A stretch of DNA of 64,000 nt, from positions 13,059,479 through 13,123,478 of the forward strand of contig OZ026837.1 in NCBI GenBank assembly GCA_964023205.1, given 5' to 3'. The notes under the pieces are model-generated. The model made no database searches. It was given only the letters and a program-made list of their open reading frames with translations, and was not told the DNA's origin. Positions 2,435-36,599 of the stretch are shown piece by piece (within the stretch, counting starts at the first letter, position 1; each line of letters begins with the position of its first letter). This stretch comes from Lutraria lutraria. Lineage: Eukaryota > Mollusca > Bivalvia > Venerida > Mactridae. A program made the translations under genes and the position numbers.

Positions 2435-4172
2435 TCATTTAAATAAATCCTTCTCATAACCAAATAATTCAAAATCATATCTGTATATTTTAGTAATTGC
2501 TTTCAACAAGTGCTTAGGGATTTCTTTATAGGCTTCGAGCATCATGGAACGTCTTTGTGATTTAAAATTTTCCGTCTGATCATCGATTGTTCGTTGTGCG
2601 ATTTCCAAAAACTTCTTTGAGGGGTACAGCATAAAGTCTTGACTATTTAATTCTTTAGTTGGAAATGGTGTGTTGCGATCGAAGTAACCATTGTATTGAA
2701 ATGCTTTCCAAAGTCTTTGAGCTACTTTGCTTTTGTTGAAACAAGATTGACTCATTTCCTTTTCGAGTTTAAAATTATACTCGGTTAATGCTTCTACCTC
2801 TTCAATTACCACTGCACGCTTAGATATATTCTGTGTCAAATGAAGCCCATACATCGCTAAAATGTAATCAGAATCATCTGCGAAAGTTTCCATTGTACCT
2901 ATAGCCGCATATTGGACATGACATGGACTGCAGAGCGAGTGAATAGGTTCCCAATGCTCATTTAATTTACGCGGCCAAATGTTTGATATAGCGGTAAGAA
3001 AATCATTGAATGACAAATCACTCGCACACTCCTGTTCTCTTTGAGTAGGAACTTCTTTTGACATCCTAATTAGAAGTTTTGCAGTACTCCAAAAATCTGG
3101 TAAAACAAATTTATCTATATAAGCCGACCAAAGTCTAGCAAAGGGATCCCGGGTGAACATAAATGCTTTATGTGCCATAGCCTTTCGCTGTTCTATGTCA
3201 TTCATATCAGCATAGCGAATGTTTCGATGAGGGCCGAAGTGAACAAAATATCTATCTATATCTGAAGGTTTTCTAATGTTTTGATTCGTAGGATAATCGT
3301 GACTTACAAATCGCAAAACTCTTTTCCAATAGGTGCAGCCAACTTTCGGAACAACACAATAATATATATCTTCATACTGCAAAAATTTACCATGACGTTT
3401 CATATTATTCCAGTAGGATGTGTTTAAGTACGTATGGCATTTTTCATCTATTTGATTCAATTTGATTTTCATTTTTTTATTTTGAATATTAAACTTGTCA
3501 GAATCATGTGTAAGTACGACTAGATCTGAGTTTTTTTCCGGTACAGGGTCGATGTCTTGTGAATGTTGCTCATAACGTCCACCCAACTGTACGTAAAATA
3601 AATAAGAAAAACTATTTAGACATAATTTTTGTTTCAAATTTCTTAGTCAACACTGATCAACACTTATAATAAACACAGCTAGGACTGTTTTCATTACATC
3701 CTACTAATTTCAATGCGTAGATGAGAACAAATTAAAAGCCGACATTTAACTGTACAGTATGTAGAAGTTTTACTCAATATGACTATGAAAGGACTGCTTA
3801 AAAAACAATCATACATTAAGTTTGACATTAGTGGATAACTTACTGTTATGGTTGACACATGTCTCCCTGAAAAAAAGCAACAATGGATAAAACAAGGAGA
3901 TAAGTCGTCGGCGCTTCTTTTAAAGCAAATTACCAAAAAAACTATACATTCGTAGGAAATAACAACAACAACTGAGCAACAACAGCAGCAACAGCATAGG
4001 GTATTGATGCCAGCAGCTTTTCACGTAGAGACCAAGACCTGTTAGAACATGCATTTAAACAAGGAAACATACATATTATTTACTGACCTTGCAGATAAAT
4101 CCATACTAAACACAAAACTACACTGGCCGTGACATTAATAAAAAATAGATTCCAGAAATATTTTCGTCCCAT
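2435..4172 (-). CDS. Carbohydrate sulfotransferase, CHST/HNK-1 family, three exons
   Basis: Golgi type II enzyme expected to move sulfate from PAPS to a glycan. Exon 1 is 4088-4172 (28 codons plus one base), exon 2 is a 23-nt microexon at 3844-3866, and exon 3 is 2435-3586, giving about 419 residues. Exon 1 encodes MGRK and then a hydrophobic anchor (residues 5-28); its ATG has A at -3 and G at +4. Donors are CAAG|GTCAGT and ACA|GTAAGT; acceptors are TTTTTTTCAG and TACGTACAG. Skipping the microexon would break the frame. The PAPS 5'-phosphosulfate motif PKVGCTYWKR is at about 116-125. The 3'-phosphate motif RDPFARLWSAYIDKF is at about 182-196. The family's HWEP...CSPC stretch follows at about 247-258. 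No damage is seen. Which CHST member it is, and its acceptor sugar, cannot be told from sequence alone. Confidence 0.88.
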
Positions 4173-16110: not shown

Positions 16111-16362
16111 AAGTTTCTATTCCCCACACATACTAATAAAATGCCTAATTTTGATCTTGTCCTCATTTCGACGCTCGCTACGCTCGAATGATTTAATGTA
16201 TGGATTACATGTTGCACTCATGATATGCAGGTATCTTTAAAAAGAATACCAAAATTCAACTATTATGTATGTAATCCTAAATCAACGATAATGCCATACA
16301 GAACAAAAAGTGATCCTTATCAAATTTGAGAAGTATAATTGGCTATAACGTACCGTATCAAT

Positions 16363-16866
16363 CAAAGGGGTTTGTCAAAAAAAAAAAAAAAAAAAAAAAA
16401 TCCATGTACTCCATATATATATAGAAGGGAAAGAACTTCGACCATTCGAATTTTCCAACGCGTGTTATAAACTTCCATGTTATTGCAATGCAGTACAAAA
16501 TATTTAACTCATATATAGTGCAACGTGTGGGCAACTCAACACGCTAACAGAAAATATATACTTTTACTACCTTTAAAGATATTCTAAACTCGCTATTGAA
16601 GATTTTTCACTCGACAAATTGTCAAATTTTACAAAACGAAACACTGTCGTAAAATCGCAGCGTGTATACCGGTATACATGTACAGAGCGGAACTGATGAA
16701 ATACTGACAAAACTTCCTGGGATTGGTCATAAATCATAACAATGCAATATAATTTACTAATTGGCAATGGTTTCGCATCTCACAATGGTGTCTTAGCGAA
16801 GAATTTACGTTAAAAACAATCTGACAAGTATTTTCTCTTTATTAAACCATGGCAGGTCATGTGATT
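16363..16866 (+). repeat. Left terminal inverted repeat of the 20-kb element
   Basis: It starts CAAAGGGGTTTGTCA, then an A24 run (16377-16400). From 'ccatgtac.ccatatatata' it is nearly identical to the reverse complement of the right arm through 'tcgcagcgtgtata'. Similarity weakens but persists to 'ccatggcaggtcatgtgat' at about 16866. The helicase ATG is 163 bp inside. Confidence 0.85.
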
Positions 16867-17428
16867 GATTTGTTACGTACAATATCATTGTTTGGGTGGT
16901 TTGGTTGACTGGTGCTGTTAGCTAGTATGCGGTCGGTAACGGTGTGTGTACAAGCAGTATACCAGTCACATTTGCATTTTGTAAACAAATGTGAACACGT
17001 CCCCATATAGTTACGTACTTAGATCTAAATGAACAGACAGCAACAACTTGCGGTCGATATGGCCTTAAATGGCCATAGTATGTTCATATCGGGTCCAGCT
17101 GGAAGTGGTAAGTCATTTGTGCTGCCAATGATTTACAACAGCATGAAAGATCGCGGTATGAACGTGCATTTGACCTGCACGACATGAGTTGCGTGTGCGG
17201 TGTACCCCACTGGGATTGCCACAACAATTCACAGATTTGCTGGGATTTTAAAGGCAGGTACTGTAAATTTATATATATGAAACGGTTAAGAAGGAAGCGC
17301 ATTAAATTTTCAAGTGGGTGGGGAGTGGAATTATTGCCAATTTTAATTCCTTCAATTGTAATAGTATTTTGTAAGTGATTGGTCCTAATAGACATTGCCT
17401 TTTTTATTTCATGGCTGTGAATTGGCAA

Positions 17429-17476
17429 TAACAAGGACTTTTATACCTACATATTTATTTATATAAGTCCTTGGTA
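17429..17476. repeat. Inverted CAAGGACTT...AAGTCCTTG pair
   Basis: 'acaaggactttta' at about 17431 and 'tataagtccttg' at about 17464 form an imperfect hairpin with the same arms as the perfect palindrome at 4450-4481. Likely two copies of one tiny inverted-repeat element. It sits in a helicase intron. Confidence 0.5.
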
Positions 17477-18989
17477 ATAATATGTTTGTCTCAGATCGAG
17501 CAATATTTGGTATTTACGTATAAAGTACATTTAATTGTACAACGTGACATTGATCAGGGATGCTATATTACATGTAATTGATTAACCGTTTGATGTGATT
17601 AATTATATTGATCCGTATACTGAATGGAGTGGCAACACAGACTTTCATATCTTTTAATTTAATTTAAAAACTTATCTGTCGAGGTTTATTACATATATAT
17701 CCTGTGTATATAAAGTTGTAGACACAGCAAATGTAAAGAACATGATTGATAGTCTGGTTCCTGGACGTGCTGTACAATTACGTCAGGCTGAGGCAAAGCT
17801 TAGTAATGGCTGCATACATTGCTATAATGCACAGGCAGCGGAATATTCTTATTTTGACTGATTATTTGTGATTTTATGCCTAATTTTGATTGTTTATGTA
17901 GTAATATTGTAACTGCGGCAAGATATTTTAATGATCATTCCAAAAGATCTTTTCTGATCATTTAAACGGACATCTGTGATATATGTTATATAAGTAGGAT
18001 TTATAATTTCAGTTATTAATTACTAACCCTCACAAGCACTTGATCACTTGATATAAGAAAATACCCATATGGTACAGAGGACGCCACCATTATTGCGCTT
18101 TGTCCAATAACATAGCGTAAGGGAAAGGAACTCCAGACTAAGAAAATGAATGTGAAGTTTGGTGACGTTGTCGGAAGAATTAAGGAGGCGGACGTAAGGC
18201 AGCTTTTGTTTCCAAAGTACCATCTTCAATAAAGTTATTTTTAGTGAAATATTAAGGCAGTCACCATTAGAAATTCAGCTAAAAACTGCCATTAATGAGG
18301 TCAGTATGGGTGTGGTTTCTGCCACGTGTATTGATTTCATTAAATCATTATCAAGACCTCTACCAGAATGCCTACACATCGATTATACATGTACCTTGTT
18401 TTCAACTAATCAACAAGTGGATTTTTTCAATAGAGATAACATTCTGAAAATGCCAGGACAGTTGTATGAATTCCAAGCCTTGGACACTGGAGAAAGGAAA
18501 TATTTAGATCAACTTACATCTCAAAAAGTTTTATGGCTAAAGATTGGTACCGCAGTTATCTTAATCAGAAATTTGTCAGGCACCCTTTACAATTGGCTTA
18601 AAGGAAGTGTGTGCAACATCGATGCTGATGGACCAGTTGTTGAATTCCCTACAGGCACAGTTAGAATATCAAGAATTTCATTTGATGGTAAAATTGTAAA
18701 TTATATAATAATATGTTCATACTAACCCAATATACATCAAATGAAATTGCTAACATATACTGCATGATTGGAATTCAACCACTGACATGTAAGTTGAAGG
18801 GTTTTCTCTTTTTACTGGGAAGAGGCCTTAGCCTGTTGATTTTGGGAAGAATTATTGCTAAAATTGCTGATTTTGGAAATAAAATAGCAGGTGTAAGTTA
18901 GGACTTTATGGGAAAATGCCCAATTTTCTTTTCAATGAAATTTTCAATTCAGAAGAGGCATTTGATAGGCCTCTTGTTATAGGAGGTAA

Positions 18990-19108
18990 AAAACTGTGAA
19001 GTTGATCTAAATATTTCCTCCTCTGTGTACAATAGTTCGGGCATTTTAATAATGCTATCTCTATTGAAAGAGCCTACTTGTTGATTAATTGAAAACAAGG
19101 TACACGTA
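18990..19108 (-). repeat. Inverted partial copy of the helicase exon
   Basis: On the minus strand this reads CTLFSINQQVGSFNRDSIIK followed by MPELLY, against CTLFSTNQQVDFFNRDNILK in the exon at 18385-18520. The nucleotide match includes 'taccttgttttcaa.taatcaacaagt' and, after an internal deletion, 'ggaaatatttagatcaactt'. It lies in the following intron, facing the exon about 600 bp away, so the transcript could fold back on itself. Confidence 0.75.
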
Positions 19109-19457
19109 GTTTCAAAGTCTACCGAAGACCATATAAACATAGAATATATTTTTATCTGTTCATGCAATGAACAAATCTATATGATTTATAACCACTTTCT
19201 GTCTTATAAGTTATACAGCAGTTTTAATTTAATATATATGAAACATTATGTTTACCCAAAACTTTTCGCTATGTTACTATGTATGTATATATACATACAA
19301 TTTTACTTCATCAATAGCATGCTTATCAATATGAAGTACATTTGTATCAGCTAATAAAACTTATGAACTGCTTTTATGTTTTCAGTTTTCAGTCCTTCTG
19401 CAAATGCTAACATTGCTACAAGAATCCAGTACCCACTTAAACCAAGTTTCGGTATTA

Positions 19458-21095
19458 GACTTTTGCGGTTTAAGACGGTGACGGTGGTGGACATCGGATT
19501 TGGGATTAAATTCGGGGGTCATCTCAAAATTATTGATTCATACTATTGTATAGGGCAAGTGTTACTAATTATTTTGTTTGCATGTCAACTCAAAAACATG
19601 CTTATTTTACAATTTTATTCATTTTCAACAGAACTAGAACTAAACCAATAGGCCTATAAACCAAGCATACGCATAAATTTCGGTACTTTTTGTAATGAAT
19701 CTGTTATACGACTTTTGGTTGTCTCGAATTAATTATGCCAGAGGGCGTTTCTGCTGTCGCCTAGCTGCGTCTACCAGGTACCTGTCGTCTATGCGGCCCT
19801 TTCCCGTCACTGGCATCGGGCGACTTTGCATTTCAAGTAACTCCTAAATTGGCACATACTCAAAAGCTCTAAGCTGATTCGGTGTGAATGTAATCGTAAA
19901 CAGAAATTTGCACATTCATGAACAAAACTACTTACGTCTGTATTTGTCATATTGTTAAAATAAAAATTTGTTAATGAACAAAATACAAGTAAATTAATAA
20001 TTCAAAATTATCACGAATCTTGATTATTTATAGTTGTAGTGTAATTACCCTGATAATGATAGCAACATACCTAAATATACGCATCATATATATCATAGGA
20101 CATCTGAATGATGCTCATCGGTTTGGTTTAATGCGCCACATTGGAACTGAGCTACCTTTTCCTACTTGGAGAATTGAAGGCTACAAACCAATATTTGCAC
20201 CCGTCCGTACATACGGTGCTCTGTGTATTCGCTAGTATCCACAACTACAGCTGAGCGATGGTTTATTGATATGTTACACCAGAAACACTATGACAACAAG
20301 TAGATTGTTAAGTTTAGGACTTTTAAATGTTTACACTGAAAAACTGCTGGACTCTGGAAATGTTTTAGATGTAATCAGCCGGAAAAGGAATCGTAAAATT
20401 ACACTGTTATTTGATTAGAACTAAATACATTTCGTTATGTGTCTTATCGTAAATATTTAAGGTACATGTAGATCTACTGTTTTGTTGTTTGCATTTGATA
20501 TCTGTGGAAATAATAGACATGTGACTTCATATGCAGTTAAATTTATTGGTCTATTTAATAAATAGTATGTACATGCGAATTATTTGCAAGTGTTAAACAA
20601 ACTAACCTCAGTCGAAAGGTATTGCAGTGTGTGGATGCAAAAAGGGTCGTGGAAGATTTTTACGAACTTGAAACAGGCATAGATTTTCAAGCGAGATATC
20701 TAAAACGCACTTGGGCCGAGGTACACAATAACCCCCACGAGCATTCAGAATTGTATGTATACACCATTATTGGTCAAACTACGCCCCTGGAAAGTATCGA
20801 AAATTAAATGGATATATTCGACAGTATCGTGTTTGTGTTGAGCTCAAGTGTTATAAATCAGCAGGAAAAATATGGAGACAACGTCGGGAAGTGTTACCAC
20901 GTGTAGTACATATTTGCCGGATCTTGTGTGCCGGAAAAAAACCCAAATCTGTTTAATTCTGTAAATATGACTTGACATCAAAATAGCACGCATGTACTCC
21001 AATGTAATTCATTTTCATTGTAAATGTAAGACGACCCCTTTAATTTAATCCGAAGTTCGACACCGTCACCGTCATCGTCTTAAATCGCAAATGTC
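19458..21095 (+). mobile_element. 1,638-bp DNA element inserted in the helicase
   Basis: The ends read GACTTTTGCGGTTTAAGACG and, on the minus strand from the right, GACATTTGCGATTTAAGACG. Similarity continues through 'TGACGGTG' and 'GGATTAAATT'. It is flanked by TATTA at 19453-19457 and 21096-21100. Removing the element and one TATTA restores the helicase frame exactly across PSFGITIHKAQG. The duplication could also be read as ATT if the element ends are AGAC/GTCT. A short transposase-like fragment lies inside. PIF/Harbinger is a tentative class. Confidence 0.82.
20090..20235 (+). pseudogene. Possible DDE_Tnp_4 (Harbinger-like) transposase fragment
   Basis: The frame gives IGHLNDAHRFGLMRHIGTEL, then PFP and IFAPVRTYGA. 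A 'GHLNDA.-F-L...IG...-FP' block resembles the region around the second catalytic Asp in DDE_Tnp_4/HARBI1-type transposases as I remember them. About 45 codons only, with a stop at 20233-20235 and nothing convincing on either side. A second open stretch at 20622-20807 is unrecognised. Weak call. Confidence 0.3.
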
Positions 21096-21654
21096 TATTA
21101 CCATCCACAAAGCACAGGGAATGAGTTTAGATAGGTATTCTAATGTTTTTGAAATAACATTAGGCACAAGATGTTCAGTAAATTAAAGATAGTGTGTGTA
21201 TTAATAATTTGGGAACCAGACATCTGCTAATTTATTTTCATGCAGATGTCTTAATAAAATTATGAAAGGTTATTATCATAATAATTGAGATTTATATCAC
21301 CCAATATTTCTCTGATTTGACACAATCATGATTAACTCTTCACCAAGAATAGTTTCTATTAATTTTGTTATAAAGATTTATAAATTGAACACTGATTTAG
21401 ACTGCTCACATGACATAATAATTCCTTTTTTTAGAGTCAATGTTGACTGCCAGCAAATCTTTTAACCTGGCCAGCTAGGCGTAGCATTGTCAAGAGCTAC
21501 AAGGGCTGATGGCTTACGAGTTATTAACTTTGATCCAAAATACTGCATCCGACAGCCACAAATCATATTTGAGTTTATTTCCAAAGAAACGCAACCAGTA
21601 AATGATGACATAACTTGCTGTACATGAGTTATCACAAGGTATATATTACTATCA

Positions 21655-21865
21655 CAATTTCTGTTTGTTTATAGTTGGCGTACGCCCTTTTCAACAGTCC
21701 GAGTCATATGAGGCAGACATTTACCTAAGCATTGTTCCTGGAGAACCAGTACTAGACTCCTAACCTCTGTAAGCAGCTTCCTACTTTCTCACAAGAAGAA
21801 ACATGGTCGGTAGCAGGGCTAGAACCTGCCACCCTCTGTCAGTGACAGGTTACAGTCATTTTGCT
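21655..21865. repeat. Dispersed repeat B, second copy
   Basis: It contains 'gcgtacgcccttttcaacagtccgagtcatatgaggcagaca' and ends 'ccaccctctgtcagtgacaggtt', in the same order as 9480-9715. On the minus strand 'GGCAGGTTCTAGCCCTGC' resembles a tRNA B box. Confidence 0.5.
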
Positions 21866-22301
21866 GTTTCAAATCAGTTGGTCAAATGTTAAGGTCATCC
21901 TGGGGGGCATTGTGTTTTAGTCTTGTTAAAACTTTGCTTGGAAAGAATAGTTTCATACAATAGATTTTTGTTTGCAGTTGATAATAATTATGTACATTAT
22001 GTAAAGGAAATGAAATATCATGGTTACTTTCATAAACACATATGGCATGCAACATATTTTAATTGTGTGATTTAATGATTTGTATATAAAATAACAGTAA
22101 TAGAATTATATGTTTCTTAAAAGTGATTTATTACAATTATTATGTTCAGTTTATTATTTCATCATATAATTGATAAAGTCTGCCAAATATATTCAAACCT
22201 AGTGATGTACATTTTAATTTAATGACAACAAAACTGTAAACAAGTGTATAATATGTAATATTCACCAAGTTAATTGTAATAATAGTTAAATGCTATGTTG
22301 T

Positions 22302-24650
22302 TTACATTTTCACTACTTTGATTTTACTGACATTGGTTTCAGTTTTGGTTGATTTCCGCTTCCTTAGTGGTCCAGGTAATATTTCACATCCACCTGATGG
22401 TTGGTGTTTCCGTATACCAGCATTTGACTTAAAAGATATTACATTTTGTCCAAGTATCACACTGTTCATAGTATTTTTGTATTGTACTACATTGGGGTTA
22501 CTGCTTGCACCATTATATGTTGATCGTTGTTGGTTGAAGTTATTTTCTATGGCGTCTGAATTGATTAGTCCAGGAGTTATGAATATACCACTGCTAGATT
22601 TATCATCGAAAGACCTTTTACAGAGTTGTATAAAGCCTATTAAGCATGAGTGTAGGTCTTCATGACACTGATAAGACATAAGACTCTTAGATCTTTGCTC
22701 CTTAGGCACACTATCCTCCCAGGCTTGGAACCAGCAGTCTACCTTTTCAAGTTCTTTCAACCTCTCATCATCTGCATTTTTGATTGGTCGCATGTCTCTA
22801 AAAATACGGACAACAACTGAAGTTTGTTCTAAAAATTCTAATATTCCTGATAATATCATCCCTTTTTCGCCAAGATATATTTGATATTGTTTCATTAGGT
22901 GCAGCATTTCGCTATTTAAGACATCTTCAGCTAAGTAATTACGCATTTTAAGTTGATTGTCAGGGTAAATGTGTTCCTTTGAAAGATTTTTATGCAATTG
23001 AAGAATCGACCAACATCTGCCATTGTACTGTATAGTTTGATTGTAGTGTTATTAATCTTTGTACATTTAGTAGTCATTTACCACTAATTCCTGATTTTAT
23101 TAATTTTTTTCTGATTGTTTTCAATACGTGTGAAATGTCCATCATAAAAACTATTTTGTTCAGATTACATGGACTTAATGCAGTGAATGTTTGAGTTTTA
23201 ACATTGATATTGATTTTCATAAAGCTGCGGTTGCATTGTGCACCGTCAATACATGTGTACATAATTTTAAAACCATGTGCTGTTAACCTGTCAACTGCTT
23301 CTAAAAATAAAAAATACAGTTCTGCTGCTTGTACAGAATCCGAGATAAAATGTGCGAAAGGAAAACGAAAACCTGTAATTCCAAGGAATAACATTTGTAG
23401 TACATGTGTCCCTAAAACACTGTCCCTTTTCCCTTTTCTCATTGTATATAACATGTTTCCATCCTCACCAAGCTCGGTTAACCCTGTTAACTCAACAGCA
23501 TCCCAATTTTTAGTAATTTGTAAATCTGTCTGTATTGACATTTGGTCAAATATTATACCCCCACTCCAATCTTTAAGATTTCTTCTTTTGGCTTTAGTGA
23601 ACATCCACAAGAATATATTGTCTTGAAACCCAATGTCTTGTCTAAAACGATTTTTGTAAAGAATAATCGAAGATGCTGAAGGGAATATCAATATTTTACT
23701 AAGTCTTAATAATTCATATGCCTGTTGACTTTTATTAAAGAGTTGAAGGCAAACAGTTATAAACTTCTGTGACCATCTTCTTCCCCTTGGGTTCACTTTA
23801 ATATTATTTGCTTGCTCTATTAAAAGTGCAACCATTTCTTCATTAGCTTCAGGGATTACTTTCTTAATATCCATTTCTGTATTTTCCCCTTTATTTTCTT
23901 GTCCTTACTAGTACCTGAAGGGTTGTTTTCTTTGTTAGAAATCTTATTACAAGTTAATGTCATTTTTTGGCAAGTGCGACAGCAGCCGTTTATATTGTTA
24001 AAAGGTACAACCCTGCTACAATTCAATGAACGAATAGATCGAATAACTTCTGATTCCTTTAATTTTTTAATGGCCTCAACTGTATGAAAACGATTTATTG
24101 TTACAGATTGAGTCATTTTCACACCAAAACAAAGTTTTAGTTTCTTAATAATGTCACAAATTAGTTGCACACAGTCTGTATGATATCTGTTACTTATATG
24201 TAACTTTTTCAGTTCTATATCTGTGTTATTGATTACTAGAGACCATGTACCATTCAGATGAAATTAGATTTCTTTAATTATTGTATGTCCATTGGAAGTG
24301 CTTTCGGTCTTGAGATGGTATATAACTGAATCATTTTCAATGTTTTTTTGCATGTCACTTGGTATAATGTCATATATTTCTTCAATGTTTGAAATTTTAC
24401 TTTCACTGGTGAAATCAACTTCAGTGTTGAGTGGTTATACAGATATACCTCTGTATAATGTTTTACCGTCCTTTCTGATTCGTTTAATGCTTGGACACAT
24501 TTGATTTAAATGCTCAATAAAAAGTCTAATGCTAGGTTTTTCAGATAAAACAATGTGACCACATTCAATACCCTCAAATATGAAACTTTCATACAAGTGG
24601 TTTATTTCAACTGTTGACTTTTCATCTTGTGCTAGCCTTGTCAAAATCCT
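22302..24650 (-). pseudogene. P-element/THAP9-type transposase, broken
   Basis: Cut-and-paste transposase with an RNase H-like DDE core; the likely enzyme of the 20-kb element. The first visible exon starts at about 24650 after a TTGTACTTAG acceptor (ILTRLAQDEKSTVE). The catalytic region, read from 23874, has WSGGIIFDQMSIQTDL (first Asp), TELGEDGNMLY, GTHVLQMLFLGITGFRFPFA, then CIDGAQCNRSF (second Asp) and MDISHVLKTIRKKL, matching the D-x2-H-x2-K-x2-R word of the family. After a probable short intron (about 23081-23028) come NGRCWSILQLHKNLSKEHIY, KMRNYLAEDVLNSEML, and GLINSDAIENNFNQQRSTYN, where the E of DAIEN is the expected last acidic residue. A basic tail ends at 22302. Stops at 24435-24437 and 24264-24266 and a frameshift near 23880 inactivate it. 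No N-terminal THAP zinc finger was found next to it. Confidence 0.88.
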
Positions 24651-24770
24651 AAGTACAATAATAATTGAATATTGAAGTCATGAGCTGATTATTATGAAAA
24701 TGTATAAGACGTACATTATATACCGGTATACATTCTGCATTAATCTTTTGTATCACCAAATTATACTATA

Positions 24771-24989
24771 TACAGTGCAACTTCTCCAATATACCACCCT
24801 TTGGTTGTACATGAGTACAACCTCTGTATAGCAACACCCTATGGAAGCTAAAAATAGTGCCGTTGTTTAGAGGTTGTTGCTGTACAGAGGTTAAATTAAT
24901 AGTAAATATCAGCTCAGGGAAATTTTTAGGATGTTGTTATAGAGATGTTGTTGCTCTAAAGAGGGTCGCTCTGGAGAGGTTGTACTGTA
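24771..24989. mobile_element. TA-flanked pogo/Tigger-like MITE, 219 bp
   Basis: Left TACAGTGCAACTTCTCCA and right, on the minus strand, TACAGTACAACCTCTCCA are inverted repeats with TA at both ends. CAGT.CAACCTCT is typical of pogo/Tigger-type ends. No coding. It lies just upstream of the P-type transposase exon. Confidence 0.65.
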
Positions 24990-25069
24990 GCAAAATTATT
25001 TTGTTGTTGAAAGGTTAAATTAAGAGAGGTTAAATTAATAGTTTAATTTTACACCAGGAAAAAATCTAC

Positions 25070-25552
25070 TTTTGCCTTGTCAACACACTAGGGGGCATAT
25101 TTTTGTTCAGTTTTAACAATACTGGGTCAGGATGTTAATAAAGGAGTTCGATATTGGGTCAAAAACAAGGTAACCAGGTCCAATTAAGGGAAAATGTTGT
25201 GAACACTCAACAAATTACTTTTCTGATTGGATCCTCATAATACTTTTTTGTCAACTTTGATAATTGGTCTTATGCGATAGAAAACTAACAGCAAATTGCA
25301 GAAAAAAACATTTTAACACTCTATAAGTCACTGTTTTGATTGGATCTTCACCAAATCTTGTTTGACTGTTTGTTTTAATGATATGTAGGTCAAAACATGG
25401 ATCATCTGGGGTCAGACACTAGGTCAACAGGTCAAATCACAGGAAAAGCTTGATTTCAGCAGACCTCATGACACAGTTTCAAACAATGTTTTAACAAGTA
25501 AACAATGATTGTCATGTGAGCGATATAGGGCCATCTTGGCCGTCTTGTTTCA
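25070..25552 (-). repeat. Dispersed repeat A-related copy
   Basis: It contains 'ccttgtcaacacactaggggg', 'tgattggatc.tca' twice, 'ctaggtcaacaggtcaa' and 'gcagacctcatgacaca'. It ends 'gtgagcgatatagggccatcttggccgtcttgtt'. The same order is seen in 60885-61255. A short tail of the same family is at 29875-29915. Confidence 0.6.
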
Positions 25553-26120
25553 TTTCATATAATTTCCTAAAATAAAATGGGTTATTATCCCTAAAAAATT
25601 TGTTTTGCCTTTATTATCAACCAGATACAGAACTAGTTTATTTAACTTTTAAAGAGTTTGAAATTGTCTAATTTTGCATTATATAAATGGAAGCACTTTT
25701 GTGTTAATTTTAAAATTTATGTTTCTGGTTGAGAATAAAGCCAGAAAATAGGTTGGCTGATTTTTTCGTCTTGTAATTTTAATGCAGATTATGTGACAAT
25801 ATAAAGTTGTAAATATTTCTTAAAGAATTGGCCACACATTGTTAAATTTTGCCCATGGAAATTCACATACATGCAAAACAATGAGACCATTATTGAAAAA
25901 ATGTTGTTTTTGCTTAATACTAACTGGTCATGAAAAAGACGCCTGTCCAAATTGTTTTTGCTTCTTCTGGATTTTTTTATGTAAAAATAGCAATCTGACA
26001 TGTATTTCTGGTGCAAAATAATATATGAAATTGAACAAAAAGTATTTCCTATCTACTCAATGACAATTTTCTTGGCATTTACTGCAGACATACAGTTTCA
26101 AATAACCAGAATGATGCTAG

Positions 26121-29100
26121 ATGCTGAATATCAGTTTAGATAAACTAATAGCCTATAATAAATGTTCTTGTACTTTAAGCTCTGAAGAAAGGGATCAGAT
26201 TCAGCATCAACAAACTGGCTCAGCATTAGTTCATCAGGACATTGACTTAATTGAAGATATGTTTCATGAAGACATTGATGAAGAATTTGATGAAATAATT
26301 ACATCAATATCGCAAGAGGCCGTTTATGATGAATTTGAAATACCGGAGAACTTTTCGTTACCTGATGTTTTACAGAAGTTGGAACATAAAAATGTAGTAA
26401 CAGAATTTCAGTCAAGAGCCAATGGTATATTGGATAACATGTGCATGCAACAACTTAATTTATGTGTGAAAAAACAATTTTCAAAATTAAAGGACTTAAT
26501 ATTGATGAAACAACACCGAGGGCAATTCCTAACAATATTTTGTTGAGTTTTTGTAAAAGGTTTCATGAATATGCCACTAGTTCTGACTACCGAATGCAGT
26601 GTTTGTTGCTTTTTCCAAATGAGAATTTTTCTAATGAGCACTCGCATGTTTGCTTTAACATACTGTCAGAAATCAGGAAGTTTTTAATGAAAGAAAAGGT
26701 TCAATTGTTTGAAATTAGTAAGAAGGATATTGGAGACAGGAAAATCACTAATGCTTCTAGAGCAAGGATCAGGTATGTTGGAGGCTACTGTCTAAACAAA
26801 GTCAGGGCAAAGTATTTGAGGGCTACAAAACATCACATGTATTCGACTTTTGAAGAAGGTCAAATTTTATATGAAGAGGCACACCAATCTTTAAATATCT
26901 TAAACAGTTTAAGAGAAGAAGAATCTAATATACTGGCCTCGACAAACGAACCAGACTCTTTGATTGACATCGAGAGGCGCCAAAATCTGCAGAGAGGCTT
27001 AACTAACATTTCTGATGAATTGTTTCATTTTTTTACAGAACTGACTAGCCTATGTTTAAATGCATTTATAAGTGAAAACTTGGTAACATATGGGCAACAT
27101 GTTTTTGATGAATGTTTTTGTAAAATTGTAAAAAATGAAAAGATTCATAGTCTGTTTCTTAATTCAGTTTCTCAGACAATGACTTGTGAGAATAGTTCAA
27201 GTTTGCTTGTGAAAAAGCAGAATAATTTTTTTTTGTTGTAATTATTTATTTCCACATTCAATTTTCACACCATAAAAGAACACAAGTATATATATATATA
27301 GGTACAAATATAGTGTAAATATAGTTGTTAGTTATTTTACAGGCAAAAAACAAAATACATTGTATTTGATAATCTCATTTTTTCAATTTATATACCAATA
27401 TCTAATAATTATTTGTAATTTATCGTTTTTTCAAAAATCAATAGAGCGAAGAATAGAAGAAATCTAATGGTTCTAGTTTAAAGTTTCCAAACTATCCTTG
27501 GTAAAATTATATATATCAAAATCGTGTATTTATATCACCAAGTTAATCCACAAAAAAAACAAAAAAACACTGTATTAGTCTAATGATGAATAGTGCTTAA
27601 AGTACAAACTAGACCACAATTTGCCTTATTAATTCTTAACAGGAGCACATTAATTTTCATATGCAGAAATAGAAAAAAAAAGAAAAAAGAATTGCCTAAC
27701 TAAATCATAAATAATAAATAAGATGAACATTTGTTGAATGAATGAATACATGTGTACAAGCAAATATAATAATAGAAAATTCAAGAGTTTGTGTTATTTT
27801 ATAATGCGACAAATGAATAGGGTTAGTTTTTATTAGAAAAAAGACATTATCCTACCAAATATTTTTCAAGTTACAGCTATAAAAAAACAGAAAAAAATAA
27901 GAAGGTAAGGTTTCATAATGGCGTAAGTGTTTCAATTTTAAGTGAAGAAATCAAAAACAATTTCATTAGTTCACAAGAACTCTTACTGCTATATGATCCT
28001 AAGGTGCATTTATATGGCCATGTTATCAAATATGAAATAACAGAATGATACAGTTGTTTGGACTATGGGGTTTCCTGCTGTAATACAGTCATGAAACAAT
28101 GCCATTTTTTATTAAAACGGTCAATATTAAAAGAATTCCATGACATGAACTGTTCCGTCTTAAGATATGTAAGTAGGTACTTTTTAAAATTTGCAAGGGT
28201 AGGGAAAGTATCATTCATCTTACAATAATATATATACTTTTTTGCAATAATAATTACTTGATTAAAAATTTGATTTGCTAATGTTAATAAAAGTGGACTA
28301 CCCAGTATCAGTTCTGTTTTTGTCCAGAGATTGGTTATTTCTGGTTTGATATTATTGACCCAGTCTTTGAGATATTCCCAAAAAGAAGATACAAATTGGC
28401 AATTATAAAATAGATGACATAAAGTTTCTGTTTCTTGGTGACAAAAAGTACAGGAAGAATCATTTCTTAATCCCATTCTAGTTAATAGATAGTTTGTACC
28501 TAAGATTCTATGATTAATCCTATATTGGAACCATTGTAAATTTGAGTCCTTAGAAATCTTAAAAGGGATTTTATAAATATATTTCCACTCAAATTGTTCA
28601 GGTAAATTTAAGTCAACTTCCCACTTTGTTGTTGCTTTTAAAATTGTATTATTTTTAGTTAGTAATTTGTCATAAATATTTCTACATCCCTTTTTAGACG
28701 AGGTGATGAGCTTAAAAAGCAGAATAATGATAATGAAGAGATTGTTTTCATATTAAACAAACTTGTTATTTCGGCTGCTCAGTCAAATGTTATTTTTGAA
28801 GATATTGTTAAGAAATACATGATGGTATTTTTTGCACAGTTTAGGAAAGATGTGAAAACTGCATATAAAGTGACTAAGACAATGGTACATAGAAAGCAAG
28901 TCAAAGTATCAAAATCTAATAAAGACAACACTAAACAAAAACAACAGAAGAAGCCCTGTGTTGAAAGTAATTCACTTAACACCACTGAAACAGGCCCTGT
29001 TGCTTCAACTTCCACAGTCAGCACATCTGGTATTGTTCTTTGTAATGTATGCCAGCTTGATCACGACAATGATAACTGGATACAGTGTATTAAATGTATA

Positions 29101-29201
29101 ACATGGTACCAAAGAATTTGTGCAGGACTTAAACATGCATCAAGGTGGAAAAAATCGATGCTAATGGAGCACAGTGGATCTGCAAGGATTGCAAAAAGTA
29201 A
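26121..29201 (+). pseudogene. PHD-finger protein of the 20-kb element, broken
   Basis: An acidic N-terminal region (26121-26460; EDMFHEDIDEEFDEIITSI) shifts frame at an A6 run (26469-26474). It continues with FKIKGLNIDETTPRAIPNNI, then the conserved-looking SRARIRYVGGYCLNKVRAKY (about 26756-26815) and a helical region to 27226. A LINE (27227-28713) then interrupts it. Removing the LINE and one 15-bp duplication restores the frame into NDNEEIVFILNKLV, MMVFFAQFRKDVKTAYKV and a Lys-rich linker. The C-terminus is a PHD-type zinc finger: CNVC, WIQCIKC, WYQRICAGL, then WICKDC after a second frameshift at an A6 run (29149-29154). The usual His after WY is Gln. Stop at 29199-29201. About 530 residues if intact. 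I recall similar PHD-tailed uncharacterised proteins in cnidarian and mollusc genomes. A CCFC...CPNC stretch at 25905-25965 may be an upstream exon. Role unknown; chromatin binding or target choice is a guess. Confidence 0.75.
27227..28713 (-). mobile_element. 5'-truncated LINE, 1.49 kb, with 15-bp target duplication
   Basis: AAAAAGCAGAATAAT occurs at 27212-27226 and again at 28714-28728, and the host frame is continuous once one copy and the LINE are removed. On the minus strand the 3' end has a short poly(A) (T8 at 27227-27234). The coding part, from about 28705 to the stop near 28063, gives KGCRNIYDKLL, LQWFQYRINHRILGTNYLLT, RMGLRNDSSCTFCHQETETL and CHLFYNCQFVSSFW. That is the C-terminal zinc-binding tail (C-x2-C...H-x4-C) found after reverse transcriptase in L1/Tx1-like LINEs. 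Only the end of ORF2 and ~830 bp of 3' UTR are present. Confidence 0.88.
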
Positions 29202-30295
29202 CATTGTATAATATACATGTATGTATAATTATTGTTATGGATTGTAATATTTCAAGTTCAGACAGTTTTTAGTTATTTTCAATACTTACAAGTGATAGGC
29301 CATTTCCCATGCATAATGGCCAGTTAGGTTGATAAATAGCATTAGTGAATGAACAAGTGAAAACAAGTGGTTAGATCAATAAAATTGCTTTTGTGAAGGT
29401 TTATTTCTTACCAGTTTACTAGCATTGTTGATGTTGAGTGTTGAAAACTATTCGGAAGAAGAATGTATAATAAATTATAATGTAACACTTTACCTCATAA
29501 TCCCTCATTTTCCGATCTGTATGTATGAACCAAAATTTGTTTCTGGTTACATTTTAATAGGGTAGGTTGAGATTTTGGGGGGATGATTATTTTATTATTA
29601 GGAAGGTGAAAAAGTGAGAGTTGATGTACCATTCTTTGGGGTTTATGAAATGTTTAGGGTCACATTTAAAAATTAGGGTAGATAACCAGAATCAAACTTG
29701 TTTTAAAAAATTAATTACTGAAACACCACATTTTTTAAAGTTTTAGGCAAAACTTACTGAAGGTTAAATCAAATGTATATCGTTTGTAATTGTTTATACG
29801 GGGTAAATATTGCCCCTCGCCCCTGGTCACTTGTTTTCTCATAGGCTGATTATGTTTTCCCTCAGGATGTTTTTTCTGGTGTGCGATATAGGGCCATTAT
29901 ATCCCTCTTGTTGACTTATACCTGCTACAGAATTTACGAAATGTTGTCAGGCATATTTTAAGTTACATATCTGTTGTTATTTATGAATTAATTAGTACAT
30001 TAGGGTGTAATTGTATATGATTAAGAATAAGGATGTGGTGTGTGTCACAGTGCGCGTGAGGTATTGTTGTTTAGAGTATCAAGTTTCTTCTAATTCATTC
30101 TGTATGTTTGTGTATTATAAATGACGAATTGTGCCATTTGCTTTTCTTGTGGAAATAAACATTTATCAATCTAACTATATATCTGTCTATTGTTTTTACA
30201 GTTGACATGTTTGACCCTTCCAGACTAATATATACAGTTAGATTTAATAATATTTGATCCAAGTAGCATGCATTATTACAGAACTACATCTGTAG
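29202..30295. other. No gene; short repeat A tail at 29875-29915
   Basis: AT-rich, possible polyadenylation signal 'atcaataaaa' near 29372. The words 'gtgcgatatagggccattatatccctcttgtt' at 29880-29912 are the end of repeat A. Nothing else recognised. Confidence 0.5.
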
Positions 30296-30428
30296 CGGTG
30301 TGGTATATTGTATTATAAATTGGCTGGGATATACACCAGCCTGATTAGCTCAGTTGGTACAGCATCTGACAGCAGGAGGTTGCGTGTTCGAGCCCCGCAT
30401 CGGGTACATTATTTTCCTCCTATTACAT
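30296..30428 (+). repeat. tRNA-Lys-derived SINE-like unit, copy 1
   Basis: The tRNA-like part is 30339-30405. GCCTGAT pairs with ATCGGGT as an acceptor stem, TTAGCTCAGTTGG is an A box and GTGTTCGAGCCCC a B box. The D stem is damaged (GGTACAGCA). The anticodon arm is shortened, so it cannot be a working tRNA. It is followed by ACATTATTTTCCTCCTATTA, which also follows copy 2. Confidence 0.75.
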
Positions 30429-30789
30429 TTGGTGCTCTGAGTGTGTGACTAATTAGACCAGTCATCTAAAGTTCAAAATTGGCCTTCTGGGGAATAAATT
30501 AGTACATAAGCCATTTTTGGTATATTGGTTCTTTATGTGATAGAGAATGACCAGAAAAAAGTCCCCAAGAATCCTATGGTGCAAAAGCGAGATTTTTGGG
30601 CTAAAAGATGGAAAAAATGAATAAAACTGCGAATTTCTGGAATCCCTGTGTAACTCAAAAACAGTTCATTCCTGACATTTTAAATTTTCTACACTGGTAA
30701 AAATTTATCAGCAGCATCTTTTTGAATGTTTTTATATCGGCTTAGAATCCAAGATGGCCGCCATAATCCAATATGGCCGCCCAAACTTC

Positions 30790-32125
30790 ATTCGGTTTAA
30801 GATTAATTTTTGAATTGTCGTATAAAACATTTTCTGCAGTAAAAAACGGTCAACTTAGTAGCTTTTCCAGTATTTTAGCATTGAAAGGTATTTAATCAAT
30901 ATATTTTAGTAATTTACAGTATAAAGATTAATCAAAGTACTGGAAGTACTGACGGCAAGTCAACTTTGTCGTATTTTAGCATTTTCGTGGCAAAAACGCG
31001 GAAACTCGTACGACATGGCTTAAGTCACCACCATATGTTCGAGCACTACTTTAAATAGTGAATGAAACAATATTAGTAAATCTTGTTACCTCAACAGTTT
31101 ATGAATGAAACGTTTGTGCGTTTGAATACTTAAATATTATACATTGTACTTATAAGTTTAACAGTTTAAGTTGCCATAACATAATATTTCTGCAGTAATA
31201 ACTTCAGCTTTTATCAAAAGTCTAACTCTGCAATGTATTCGACAAGTGGTACTATTTTCTGTCCTGTTATTGGGCCGAGGGTAACTATTTTGAATATGAT
31301 GATGTAGGTAAGTATCACCTTCCAAAAACATAGATTTGGTACTTTAGTAATCAAGAAGTAGTTCTAGATAGCAAAAGTGTAATGACTTCTTTTGTTTCAG
31401 ACGATTTTTTTGTGGAGGTTAGTAGTTATAATTTACAATGAATATGTTAGTGGCGGTGATTTTTATTGATTACTTTTTATTACAATGTTGTTTATCTATC
31501 ACAATGAATCCTTATATTAATTTTCACTGTTGGAAATGCAATGTTTAATGTTGTTTTACGGCGCATCGACAACATAAGTCATGTAAAGCGAAATTTAATA
31601 AGAGGACGTCAAGAAGTATGTTATCAGATTGGTAAAAGGATATATAGTCATGTTAATAAGAAATGAAGCGCAACTAAAAATGTAAAATGAAATAGTTGCA
31701 ATTGATATGTAGTGACAAAAAAAAATAAGAGTGTGTGAGACTAATCTCATTTATATTGTATTATATTATAGTGATACAGATTATATAACATCAGATTAAA
31801 TAGGTTGATGCATGTGGTATATGTTTCTTTCGTTCTTGGTATTTGGTTTGGAAAGTGCCAAGTGGTGGAATTACATTCAAAGATATATTTTGATAAAGTG
31901 TAATTAACAACTTGGTATGCATTGTTAAAAAGAAATGTAATTTTAGTTTTAAAATACAAATGTATAATGAGCGGCAAATTTTTGTTGTGAAAAAAGGGAC
32001 ACTTAGTACTAGTATTTCAATTGCCTCAACATAGAGGCTCCAGGGACAGGTCTTTAACCATGAATATGTAGTGATTCAAGGGCTATTAGATATGATTTTC
32101 AGGATGATTCAAATACAATGGACCC
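30790..32125. other. Foldback interior, left part, no gene seen
   Basis: AT-rich; splice-like signals at 31307 and elsewhere are isolated. The 31747-31977 minus-strand frame has no recognisable motif. Confidence 0.45.
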
Positions 32126-32129
32126 ATAG

Positions 32130-33100
32130 TCCAGTTCTGAATGGATAAGAGACTGATATAAACGTATTAGTACTTTTCTGTTAGATCCTCAGTCAGTGAC
32201 AACTTTCAGGAGGTATTGAGTCTTCTAGGAATTACTTTTTTTAGTGATTTAATATGACTAATATGAATGTAAGTCTGGAGTCAAATATAACCCCTATAGA
32301 TAATTAAAGTCTGGTACAACCTGAATTGGTGTGTTGCCCATATAATAAGACATAGTTCCGGATGCATTTAAAAATGTATTGAAACTGTGAAACCATTTTG
32401 ATCCGACATAGTTTCATATCAAGTATATCATTGATGGAGCCGTCTTTTAACGAGGTTTTAGTTTTTCGACTCAAAACATCAAAGGATTCAAGTAAAACCA
32501 TCTACATAAAGGGGGCAGTCTTGTCCTGGATTTAAAACTTCAACTTCACTATTAATTTTGATACTAAATGGGGTGACCCACAGGATACAGCCCTGTGGCA
32601 CACCCATTTATTGTTTGTGTGGATCTGAAAGAGAGTTTCCCACTTGGACACCGAAGAAAGCCACAATAAAAGAAGTGGAAGGTGACATCTGAGTATTGCG
32701 TGATGATCACTAGAAAGCCCAGCTAAGGAATAGGAATTAGCAATGCTAAGAAGAAGGGAGTTCATCTGATTCCCATACATTATTAAACGTATCAAGTAAA
32801 AGAGAAAGAGTATGAATGGGCTTTTAAGAAATTAATTGATAATGAACTTTGTCTGGACCAGAGGATTTAATTGTACTTCTCTTGGTTTTGGAAGAGATAT
32901 TAAGTTGTTTCTCTCATCCCAGGTCTTGTGTGCCTGAAAAAAATCTATGTCTGTGTAGCCTAAATTAACGTTGCTAAGAGACTTTAACATGAAACGTTGC
33001 AGATGACACTTGTGGAAGTGACCACTTTCCCAGCTTATTTCATCAGCATGTCCGTCCGTCTGTCTAAGACCAATCCAAACTGCGGAAGCTAGCAATAGCG
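32130..33100 (-). pseudogene. LINE reverse transcriptase remnant (Jockey-like)
   Basis: Pieces in different minus-strand frames line up with the finger and palm region of a Jockey-type reverse transcriptase. In order they are LLLDTFNNVWESDELPSS (about 32745-32820), VQVGNSLSDPHKQ then MGVPQGCILWVTPFSIKINS (about 32545-32660), a CPLYVDGF version of the catalytic YVDD box (about 32500-32520, second Asp changed to Gly), and SDQNGF followed by the thumb start near 32400. Several stops and frameshifts separate them. Dead copy; no 3' tail identified. Confidence 0.65.
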
Positions 33101-33727
33101 AATTTGAAAAAAAATTCTTTGAGACCAGACTTATGATTACTCATGAAACGTTAGACAATAGTGAGGATGTGTCTAACATTGTTACTTCACTGCACATAGA
33201 GACAGCTGAAGGCTCAACCCCACTGACATCCACAAACTCTAGAAGCCACGACAAACTACAAATGTATGGTATAATGATGACTGTATATGGGCTACCTAAA
33301 CCCTCAAGGAAGCCCTAAGGAAATTCAATCTGAGACTAACTGATGAAAACTTTAATTAACTCCTTTTGTATATCAAGATCAAAAGCTCGAAAATCACTAA
33401 AATAATTGGGAGACTTTGTCTCAAAACTGAATAATATAACCTCGAGTAGAAAAACGTAGGTATATTGGTCCACAAAGTCAATGGAGAAGGCTTATCTCCA
33501 ATTAAGCATTTGTCTGTTGACAACAATGATACAGACTACCTACCCTCAGGAAGAGGCACTAGCTACTGCATTCGAAAAAATGTCTTCATCTGAGAACTAT
33601 TCAGAAAAGATTAAAGTGAAGAAACTTAGGAACCTTTTGCAGGATGTAGATAGGTCTTTGCATTTGCATCTTTCATTATTGTCTGATTGTTTATTTTTGT
33701 TGTATGACCTATCGACTCTATAATTTT
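33101..33727. other. Unrecognised stretch with short open frames
   Basis: Plus-strand frames at 33133-33318 and 33481-33723 are open but match nothing I know. They may be part of the foldback element's own sequence. Confidence 0.35.
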
Positions 33728-34395
33728 AGCAGCCATATTGGATTTACATCATGCATAATCAACATTAAAATACAAAAGTTCTCAGTATTTATCAATATCA
33801 AATGTTAAAATGTCTTAGGCATAATTCTAAAGTTGAATAATTATAGTGGTTCTAGAATGTCATTTTTGTGTTTTACACAGTTTATGCCAAACATTACATT
33901 GTGAGCTTTATAAGTTCAATATTGACTTTGAAAAGAAATTCATCACAAATAATATAAAAGTAATTTCTTTTCTTCTTACATTTGTAATTAGAATATGACA
34001 AAATAGTCAAATTTGGAATTAAACAGTAAAACAATTTGGCGGCCATTTTGGATTAGAGCGGCCATATTGGATTTATGCAATGAATAATCAAGTTCATTAA
34101 AATGCAAAAGTTGTTAATATTCAATACCAAAAGTTAAAAGTGTCTTGGGCATAATTCTGAACTTGAACAAATATAGTGCTTTAGAATGTCATAATCGAGT
34201 TTTTATACAGTTCATGCCCAAAATTACATTGTGTGTTTTTATAAGTTTCGCTATTTGTTTTTTTTAATAAATTCATCATAAATAAGATAAAAGTAATCTT
34301 TATTCTTTTTACATTTGAAATTAGAATGACTGATATAAGAGGCAATCAGTCAAATTTGGATTTAAACAGTAAAAACAGCATTTTGGCGGCCATTT
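33728..34395 (+). repeat. Two tandem ~330-bp copies containing GCCATWTTGGATT
   Basis: Copy 1 (about 33728-34055) and copy 2 (about 34056-34395) share, in order, 'gccatattggattta', 'ataatcaa', 'aaaatgcaaaagtt', 'aaaatgtcttgggcataattct', 'attacattgtg', 'aaattcatca.aaata' and 'ggcggccattttggat'. The right arm of the foldback follows directly. Confidence 0.75.
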
Positions 34396-34802
34396 TGGAT
34401 TATGGCGGCCATTTTGGATTCGACTCGAGAGTAAAACTAAATCAAAATGATGTCTTTTATCAATACACATCATCTTGGAGAAATAAAACTCATTTGGCCA
34501 AATAGTTTTTGAGTTATACATTGATTCCTGAAATTCCCAGTTTGATTTATTTTTTTCAACTTTTAGCCCCAAAATATTGCTTTTGCACCATGGGATTCTT
34601 GGGGACTTTTTTCTGGGTGTTATTCACCACAAACAGAACCAACATACCAAAATTGGCTTATGTATTAATTAATTCCCAAAAAAATTTATGATGACTGGAC
34701 TAAATCTTGGAATCCTAGAGCTAGGATGAAGCAAATGGCTGGGTTAGTTTAAAGAGCCTGTGGTTGTCGCGATTAATTTACATTGAATAAAAAGGAAGGA
34801 GG

Positions 34803-34931
34803 AATGTAGTATATACTATTTATAAACTGGCTGGGATATTCACCAGTCCGATTAGCTCAGTTGGTAGAGCATCTAACTTGGAGGTCGTGGGTTTGAGCCC
34901 CGCATCGGGTACATTATTTTCCTCCTATTAC
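34803..34931 (+). repeat. tRNA-Lys-derived SINE-like unit, copy 2
   Basis: The tRNA-like part is 34846-34910. GTCCGAT pairs with ATCGGGT, and GCTCAGTTGGTAGAGC is an intact D arm. GTGGGTTTGAGCCCCGC is an intact T arm. Compared with a standard tRNA-Lys, about 7 nt of the anticodon arm are missing, so no anticodon can be assigned. Head ('gtagtatat...tataaa.tggctgggata') and tail match copy 1. Confidence 0.78.
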
Positions 34932-35910
34932 ACATCAAAGAAGTGCCAAAGAAGTCCAGGATTTATCATGAGAAAAAAATGTGTTAATTTGTGCTACATA
35001 ATAACCGGGCCTATGATGCCTCACAGAACATATTTGAATAAAATAATGTTTTAAACTATTAAGTGCTATAATCAACTGATAAAATGCGTATATGTGAAAA
35101 TTATCTTATCTTTATTCCTGTAATATTTACCTTAATATTGTCATATAATTATAAAATTGGCACCATTACAAAAATAGGTAATTTATACATGCACTACTTT
35201 AGTAATCATACATGTATTAGATTACAAATACAATAGTAATCAAGTTATGAAATATGTATAAAGCTATATCTGTCAAGTAAATATTTGGCGGAATAATTGT
35301 TTGTAACCATGTCCGATTTTGATAAGCAGCCATATAAATAGAAATGAAAGGGAGATAACTGGGATCAAACGTATTTACACTTAGAAATTTATTGGTATAT
35401 ATATCTTATCACTTAATCAGCAGTGCATTAAGCTAAGGAAAACGGTCGCCGCAAACGATTTGTGACAGAAACAGTCATATTGAACGATTTGTTACGTTTC
35501 AAGATGGCGTCCGGCCAGTTAATGCGGATCCTCTGATTCAGATCCGAATGTACACAAAGCAGCAATATTCACTTTAATTCTGCCCTAGATTGGTCTTATT
35601 CTGCGTGTTCCAGGTGATATTTTCAATAGCTACTAAAAGTTCGGGCTATTGTGCTTTAAAATATTAGTTTGAACACTACTTAATTATAGCTTTATACACT
35701 TTATTAGGTGTCAATAGATTAGCATTTTGCCAATAACCTGTGTGGGAGAGTATATCAGGTTCTGTATAAGTAACAGCAACGTACACCTTGACGCATTGTT
35801 TACAATTTACTTGTACCTTGTGCAATCTTACCTTTTTACCACGCAGCCGGGAACCATGCATCAAATCGCTCACGCAATCAGTATTTAGCTTTCAACACGG
35901 CTTAGGCGAT
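34932..35910. other. No gene seen inside the right end of the 20-kb element
   Basis: A minus-strand 'CMVPGCVVK' reading ends at a good donor (AAAAAG|GTAAGA near 35832). Its Cys-x4-Cys start is reminiscent of a THAP finger, but it is preceded by a stop and no downstream part was found. Not called as a gene. Confidence 0.4.
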
Positions 35911-36419
35911 TGTCATGTGACCTGTCATGGAAGTAAACTTCAAGAAAACGGCGAATTGAACAGAAAAACACGTAAAATCTTCGCTAAAAGAGCTTTCCGA
36001 GATGCGAAATCATTGACAGTTAGTATGTTATAGGTGTTTTATTATGAATTAAGGCCCATTCTAAGAAGTTGTGTCAGTAATTTAACATTTCCACTCTGTA
36101 CATGTGTACCGATATACACGCTGCGATTTTACGACAGTGTGTCGTTTTGTAAAATTTGACCATTTTTCGAGTGAAAAATCTTCAATAGCGAGTTTAGAAT
36201 ATCTTTAAAGGCAGTAAAAGTATACATTTTCTGTTAGCGTGTTGAGTTGCCCACACGTTGCACTACATATGAGTTAAATATTTTGTACTGCATTGCAATA
36301 ACATGGAAGTTTATAACACACGTTGGAAAATTCGAATGGTCGAAGTTCTTTCCCTTCTTTATATATATGGGGTACATGGAAATTTATTTATTTTTTATTT
36401 TTTGTGACAAACCCCTTTG
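35911..36419 (-). repeat. Right terminal inverted repeat of the 20-kb element
   Basis: Inverted copy of 16363-16866 ending TGACAAACCCCTTTG at 36419, directly followed by the duplication GTATCAAT (36420-36427). Differences from the left arm are single-base changes and length differences in the A-rich run. Open frames across it (36247-36456, 36323-36544) are incidental. Confidence 0.85.
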
Positions 36420-36599
36420 GTATCAATTGGATATTGAAAACTTATATAAGACGTAAATATGATATCGGAAACGTAATTATTGAGACTGATTTTAGCGTCT
36501 ACATCGTCTACGACTTGTCTAATTTAATAATATGTAGCTTTTAGCAATCTGACATTTCATTTTATTGTTATTCTTTCAGCTTCCGGCCCATGGGCAACA

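Follow-up and report, generated by a model that had tools for sequence, protein, structure and literature searches.

The 64,000-nt stretch of Lutraria lutraria DNA analyzed here (contig OZ026837.1 of assembly GCA_964023205.1, positions 13,059,479–13,123,478; hereafter the window) contains one decayed copy of a DNA transposon at 16355–36427. Its ends and target-site duplication (TSD) are far beyond chance. By the catalytic core, the ends and the duplication, the element belongs to the P superfamily. The copy is dead, with every reading frame broken. We consider it likely that this element combined an 8-bp TSD and inverted arms of ~450 bp with a transposase carrying an RFX-like domain, and that it encoded a PIF1-type helicase and a PHD finger, probably in one fused accessory protein.

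Termini and Extent of the Element

The 8-bp sequence GTATCAAT is present identically at 16355–16362 and 36420–36427 and is the TSD. An arithmetic estimate gives a chance of ~1 in 65,000 for an exact 8-bp match at the right flank. The element between the duplications (16363–36419) is 20,057 bp in length. It starts with CAAAGGGGTTTGTCA and terminates in the exact complement of this sequence, with all 15 bp identical. Only two exact occurrences of this 15-mer are seen in the window, and both are the element ends. The inverted arms, 16363–16810 and 35970–36419, show 89.6% identity over 450 columns (E = 4.6e-170). These facts agree with the initial annotation, which had delimited the unit by its 8-bp duplication and inverted ends.

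The arms had been described as ~505 bp long. Their existence is confirmed, but their length is nearer 450 bp, because identity drops past column 450: in a separate alignment of the arms, 312 of 330 positions are identical in columns 1–330 and only 21 of 50 in columns 451–500. The proposed 20-kb span is likewise correct, but the size of the transposon itself is inflated by a nested DNA transposon, a long interspersed nuclear element (LINE) and a repeat block. Without these three, ~12.3 kb of the element is left.

Transposase

The related transposase P0014 aligns over its full length to 24647–22302 on the minus strand, as three blocks disrupted by frame breaks and stop codons (tblastn). The family scan detects PF21787 at 23074–23904 on the same strand (E = 1.8e-13). 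The core is of ribonuclease H (RNase H) type, like that of the P transposase. Among the rows of transposase alignment A3 that have a residue at the respective site, the catalytic D, D, and E are kept in 19/19, 20/20, and 17/18.

The guanosine triphosphate (GTP)-binding part seems to differ. PF21788, used as the test for the GTP-binding insertion domain, is found in one of 15 related transposases. As far as an indirect alignment in that region can be followed, only K385 (18/20) and D528 (18/18) are kept among the eight listed GTP contacts. K400 is replaced by R and V401 by N in all 20 sequences, while D444 is kept in 1/20 and N447 in 0/20.

No THAP domain is matched at E ≤ 5 in the 15 related transposases, of which seven have the full N-terminus and four lack it. 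The minus strand of 24600–36419, where upstream exons are possible, shows no THAP match at E ≤ 1. The N-terminus of P0014 is instead modeled as an RFX winged-helix fold, and an RFX-like N-terminal DNA-binding domain is predicted for the transposase in place of THAP. Within the limits of this THAP search, the transposase falls outside the THAP9/P-element clade. The earlier designation "P/THAP9-type" is supported in its first half by PF21787 and not supported in its second, given no THAP match and the RFX model.

A protein closely related to the transposase, P0018, is listed in a metagenome-assembled genome of Sedimenticola, on a contig of 7,313 bp. It is probably animal host DNA inside a bacterial assembly.

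PIF1-Type Helicase and PHD-Finger Protein

Remains of a helicase are seen on the plus strand at 17029–17250, 18198–18686, 19379–~19450, ~21100–21135, and 21433–21638. Pieces of P0035, a helicase from Mercenaria, match the window in this order, and the three long ones (17029–17250, 18198–18686, and 21433–21638) are 61–73% identical (tblastn). The window lacks the part of the helicase that corresponds to residues 75–160 of P0035, which contain its Walker B motif, and the remainder is broken up by stop codons. The plus-strand sequence 18198–18722 matches the sequence of a solved PIF1 structure in PDB (E = 1.6e-10). Pif1_2B of Pfam scores 20.6 bits in the window copy, below the cut-off of 23.9. 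P0035 itself is a full PIF1 with both the core (PF05970, 5e-29) and the 2B domain (PF21530, 1.1e-6). The closest helicase is from Mercenaria mercenaria, with 68% identity over 76% of the query. The presence of a PIF1-type helicase inside the unit, as annotated initially, is supported by the PDB match and by the identity to P0035.

A 94-nt inverted partial copy of a helicase exon (18373–18466) is located downstream within the helicase gene, at 19028–19121, with 80% identity. It is still helicase-like when read on the minus strand.

P0001 matches 26180–29201 on the plus strand in blocks interrupted by the LINE (tblastn). The PHD finger of the window copy stays below every model cut-off (PHD_5, 25.2 versus 27). 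Among ten relatives scanned, seven exceed the cut-off of PF00628, and the PHD fold is found as well. The PHD-tailed protein claimed for the unit is confirmed. The 13 relatives come from several bivalves and from further contigs, with identities of 25–61%, and the core motifs are conserved among them. Apart from the Mercenaria helicase, the named animal relatives are clams. In the fold search with the protein model, the PHD finger alone stands out, and the helical core has no trusted match. Nor does the core have a trusted match among viral structures; a known fold is still possible. P0001 and P0003 carry the precomputed label PF27108, which is absent from the hits in the family scan of the PHD relatives.

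Gene Structure of the Accessory Proteins

A possible end of the helicase exon at 21638 (AG|GTATAT) and a possible start of the PHD exon at 26180 (TTTAAG|C) are both in phase 2. The homology to P0001 and P0002 starts near this putative acceptor. The joined frame has two stops upstream of the join and none immediately after it, and the two stops are due to decay. The proposed intron would be 4.5 kb long, with the transposase antisense inside.

P0013 is a single predicted chain, spliced or not, in which the PIF1 tail is followed by the PHD protein. P0012 from Mya, named "PIF1-like protein", has the same join, and both match the window in the same order. Because of the phase fit and these two proteins, it seems probable that the helicase and the PHD protein form one fused gene. 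Three genes had been assumed initially; the three protein parts are indeed present, but the number of genes is likely two.

Separate helicase and PHD genes with their own promoters, in an element otherwise as proposed here, are a lesser but real possibility. P0035 ends exactly at the proposed donor as a separate protein of 430 aa, several PHD relatives are free-standing with 529–566 aa, and the agreement in phase by itself is a one-in-three event. These points count against the fusion. On the other hand, P0012 and P0013 join both parts, the splice sites do agree in phase, and the free-standing PHD proteins may be single exons.

Association of the Genes and Identity of the Element

Comparison of 13 PHD proteins with 21 transposases reveals two pairs on contigs of equal size: P0011/P0020 (6,360 bp) and P0006/P0028 (1,746,463 bp). 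As a control, such coincidence is absent from all 1,339 helicase-PHD pairs and all 2,163 helicase-transposase pairs. The helicases compared are for the most part unrelated PIF1 proteins, so these counts gauge chance coincidence. By identity, P0011 is closest to P0006 (52%) among nine PHD relatives compared, out of the other 12, and P0020 is closest to P0028 (67%) among twenty transposases. This is as expected for pairs of joint descent. For P0020, the bit scores of the longer P0018 (830) and P0019 (807) are above that of the partial P0028 (753). Alignment A1 leaves out P0002, P0007, and P0008; A2, P0029–P0034; A3, P0034; and A4, P0012. Together with the PIF1-PHD joins, the pairs are signs that the PIF1-PHD-transposase set may recur elsewhere. 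To this extent they agree with the expectation of the same gene set in other genomes, which does not extend to the pairing of helicase and transposase.

Several observations weigh against our interpretation. In sequence searches of PDB chains, neither the window transposase piece nor profile A3 finds a match at E ≤ 1. The RFX fold is recovered by Foldseek only weakly (E = 0.068). The RFX profile match has an E-value of 0.0097, and designed repeat proteins outrank RFX there via repeated pieces of 1.3 bits. The confidence of the P0014 model is middling (pLDDT 68.7, pTM 0.52). Most of the transposase relatives are predicted reading frames with an apparent start at an exon border, and a first exon upstream is possible. 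Linkage of PHD protein and transposase was judged from equal contig size. Helicase and transposase were not seen directly linked outside the window, with no equal contig size among the 2,163 pairs. The element is known from a single dead copy, and scans of genome-contig and viral-contig collections gave no confirmed relative.

It is conceivable, but rather unlikely, that a P-type transposon is nested in an older PIF1/PHD element or gene, in which case just one of the two would own the outer arms. An antisense position between the helicase and PHD parts, as seen for the transposase, is what a nested insert would show. The element does contain other nested inserts, and P0013 joins the PIF1 and PHD parts in one chain without a transposase. 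The inverted pairs around the transposase are, however, short and at chance level (the best flanking pair is 22 nt with 86% identity). PHD and transposase relatives also share the two pairs of equal-sized contigs and are mutually nearest by identity. An inner P element consisting of the transposase was rejected, as no inner ends are found flanking it.

It is also improbable, and slightly more so, that the helicase and PHD protein are passengers, captured from the host or a foreign source and without a part in movement. PIF1 helicases occur widely in animals and in Helitrons, and function is not readable from a dead copy. Against this, the PHD relatives recur in several bivalves and other contigs at the identities given above, and PHD-transposase pairs are linked. 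A neutral passenger is unlikely because the PHD core motifs are conserved across relatives.

An element of Helitron or RAG type rather than P type is hardly credible: the P-type transposase match refutes it, except in the case that this gene is a nested insertion. PIF1 is typical of Helitrons, which, to our knowledge, have a Rep (HUH) domain with PIF1 and neither inverted ends nor TSDs. A Helitron was rejected based on the inverted ends and TSD, and no Rep family is reported among the 10 window frames in the family scan. A PHD finger is typical of RAG2 (PMC7204232, PMC4411706). A RAG-like/Transib element was rejected based on the 8-bp rather than 5-bp TSD and a weaker fold match.

Putative Transposition Mechanism

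For the P-superfamily element favored here, the following route can be speculated. In an intact relative, the transposase would use its RFX-like domain to bind the long arms, by analogy with the THAP domain binding the long arms of Galileo (PMC3688188). Its RNase H fold would cut both ends and insert the element with an 8-bp stagger, as in the P route. The donor break, or gaps at the new site, would then be repaired. PIF1 supports long repair synthesis, as established in yeast, and a large element might gain from its own PIF1 because of this. The element-encoded PIF1 could open DNA ahead of repair synthesis, with the sister chromatid or homologue serving as template to restore the ~12-kb element. 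Through its PHD finger, the helicase, possibly along with the entire complex, might be kept on open chromatin methylated at histone H3 lysine 4 (H3K4). The roles of helicase and PHD finger in mobility are inferred.

In flies, the Bloom-type helicase takes part in mending P-element donor breaks, through homologous recombination or end joining, and P elements prefer promoter regions (PMC7776569). The PHD of sea-urchin RAG2L binds methylated H3K4 (PMC7204232).

More tentatively, the element might represent a separate P-superfamily lineage, in which RFX has taken the place of THAP, the GTP pocket has been rebuilt, the transposase lies antisense in a PIF1-PHD intron, and a chromatin-tethered helicase drives copy-making repair. 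Such a lineage, of whose existence we are doubtful, would be present in bivalves and perhaps more widely.

Later Insertions and Neighboring Features

The features of the window are listed in Table 1. The nested DNA transposon in the helicase coding part is a later insertion, with inverted ends of 36 nt that are 89% identical. The LINE, a fragment flanked by a perfect 15-bp duplication, AAAAAGCAGAATAAT, is also a later insertion and splits the PHD protein. The repeat block probably represents one or more later insertions. It contains two tRNA-like heads in direct order, ~4.5 kb apart, with 178-nt inverted arms between them. One head scores as a tRNA in Rfam (41 bits), and ARAGORN finds none.

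A dispersed repeat of ~95 bp, 90.5% identical, is present at 25456–25549 in the proposed intron and at 61159–61253, far outside the element. Also outside the element, an open frame of 402 aa on the minus strand (2435–3643) belongs to the sulfotransferase family (PF03567, 2e-40).

Table 1. Positions of the element, its putative genes, and later insertions in the window.
Feature	Position	Strand	Basis
Left TSD, GTATCAAT	16355..16362	.	Matches 36420–36427
Left inverted arm, outer 15 bp CAAAGGGGTTTGTCA	16363..16810	+	Pairs with 35970–36419
PIF1-type helicase remains	17029..21638	+	tblastn of P0035; PDB PIF1 match
Nested DNA transposon in helicase coding part	~19451..21102	.	36-nt inverted ends, TATTA flanks
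Proposed intron between helicase and PHD exons, transposase antisense within	21639..26179	+	AG/GT donor, AG acceptor, both phase 2
P-superfamily transposase with stops and frame breaks, N-terminus predicted RFX-like	22302..24647	-	P0014 match; PF21787
Helical-core protein with C-terminal PHD finger, frame-broken, LINE-split	26180..29201	+	tblastn of P0001 and P0002; 13 relatives
LINE with duplication	27212..28728 (LINE 27227–28713)	-	15-bp TSD AAAAAGCAGAATAAT; zf-RVT 6.6e-9
Repeat block, probably later insertion(s)	30299..34932 (bounds approximate, ~30.3–34.9 kb)	.	tRNA-like heads; 178-nt inverted arms
Right inverted arm	35970..36419	-	Pairs with 16363–16810
Right TSD, GTATCAAT	36420..36427	.	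Matches 16355–16362

Comparison with Known Transposons

P elements serve as the textbook example of an animal transposon, with the THAP finger and GTP binding regarded as hallmarks of their transposase. The accessible parts of the open literature yielded no report of PIF1, PHD, or RFX in a P-type transposon, a scope that excludes Repbase, Dfam, bioRxiv, and most subscription journals. A pearl-oyster genome paper, in its available part, counts PIF1-like helicase domains as transposon-related and names no such element (PMC9646362).

The Drosophila P element and zebrafish Pdre2 share with the present element the P-type core with the same catalytic acids. Their ends starting with CA and 8-bp TSDs are also shared (PMC7776569, PMC10983969; available parts). 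They differ in having a THAP domain, terminal inverted repeats (TIRs) of 13–31 bp, and a transposase gene, with neither helicase nor PHD mentioned in those parts. Most of their GTP-contact residues are not conserved in the present transposase, as judged from an indirect alignment. If true, a lineage in which the catalytic core is retained but the DNA-binding domain, and it seems also the set of GTP contacts, has been replaced would reveal which parts are exchangeable.

The long arms were contrasted initially with the short repeats of P elements. The arms are real, but they are not new. Galileo, a member of the P superfamily in Drosophila, has TIRs of 0.5–1.2 kb (PMC3688188) and TSDs of 7 or 8 bp with the consensus GTATTAC (PMC3688188, PMC4168063). 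Unlike the present element, Galileo has a THAP domain, and the available parts of these two reports mention no helicase or PHD.

RAG-like elements (ProtoRAG and TransibSU), known also from molluscs, resemble the present element in combining a DDE transposase with a PHD-finger partner (PMC4411706, PMC7204232). They differ by a Transib-type core, a 5-bp TSD, and a kelch-PHD partner, and no helicase is mentioned in the parts available. If true, the pairing of PHD with a P-type transposase would add to RAG2 another example of a DDE transposase accompanied by a likely histone reader.

KolobokH of the Kolobok superfamily is a cut-and-paste lineage carrying a RecQ helicase, which is on the opposite strand in one rhodophyte element (PMC9587614). 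Both the superfamily and the helicase family are different from those found here. If true, an element-encoded PIF1 would make self-controlled repair of the donor site testable, a process so far credited to host helicases. Taken one by one, the ideas have precedents in these systems: long arms in Galileo, a PHD partner in RAG-like elements, and a RecQ helicase in KolobokH.

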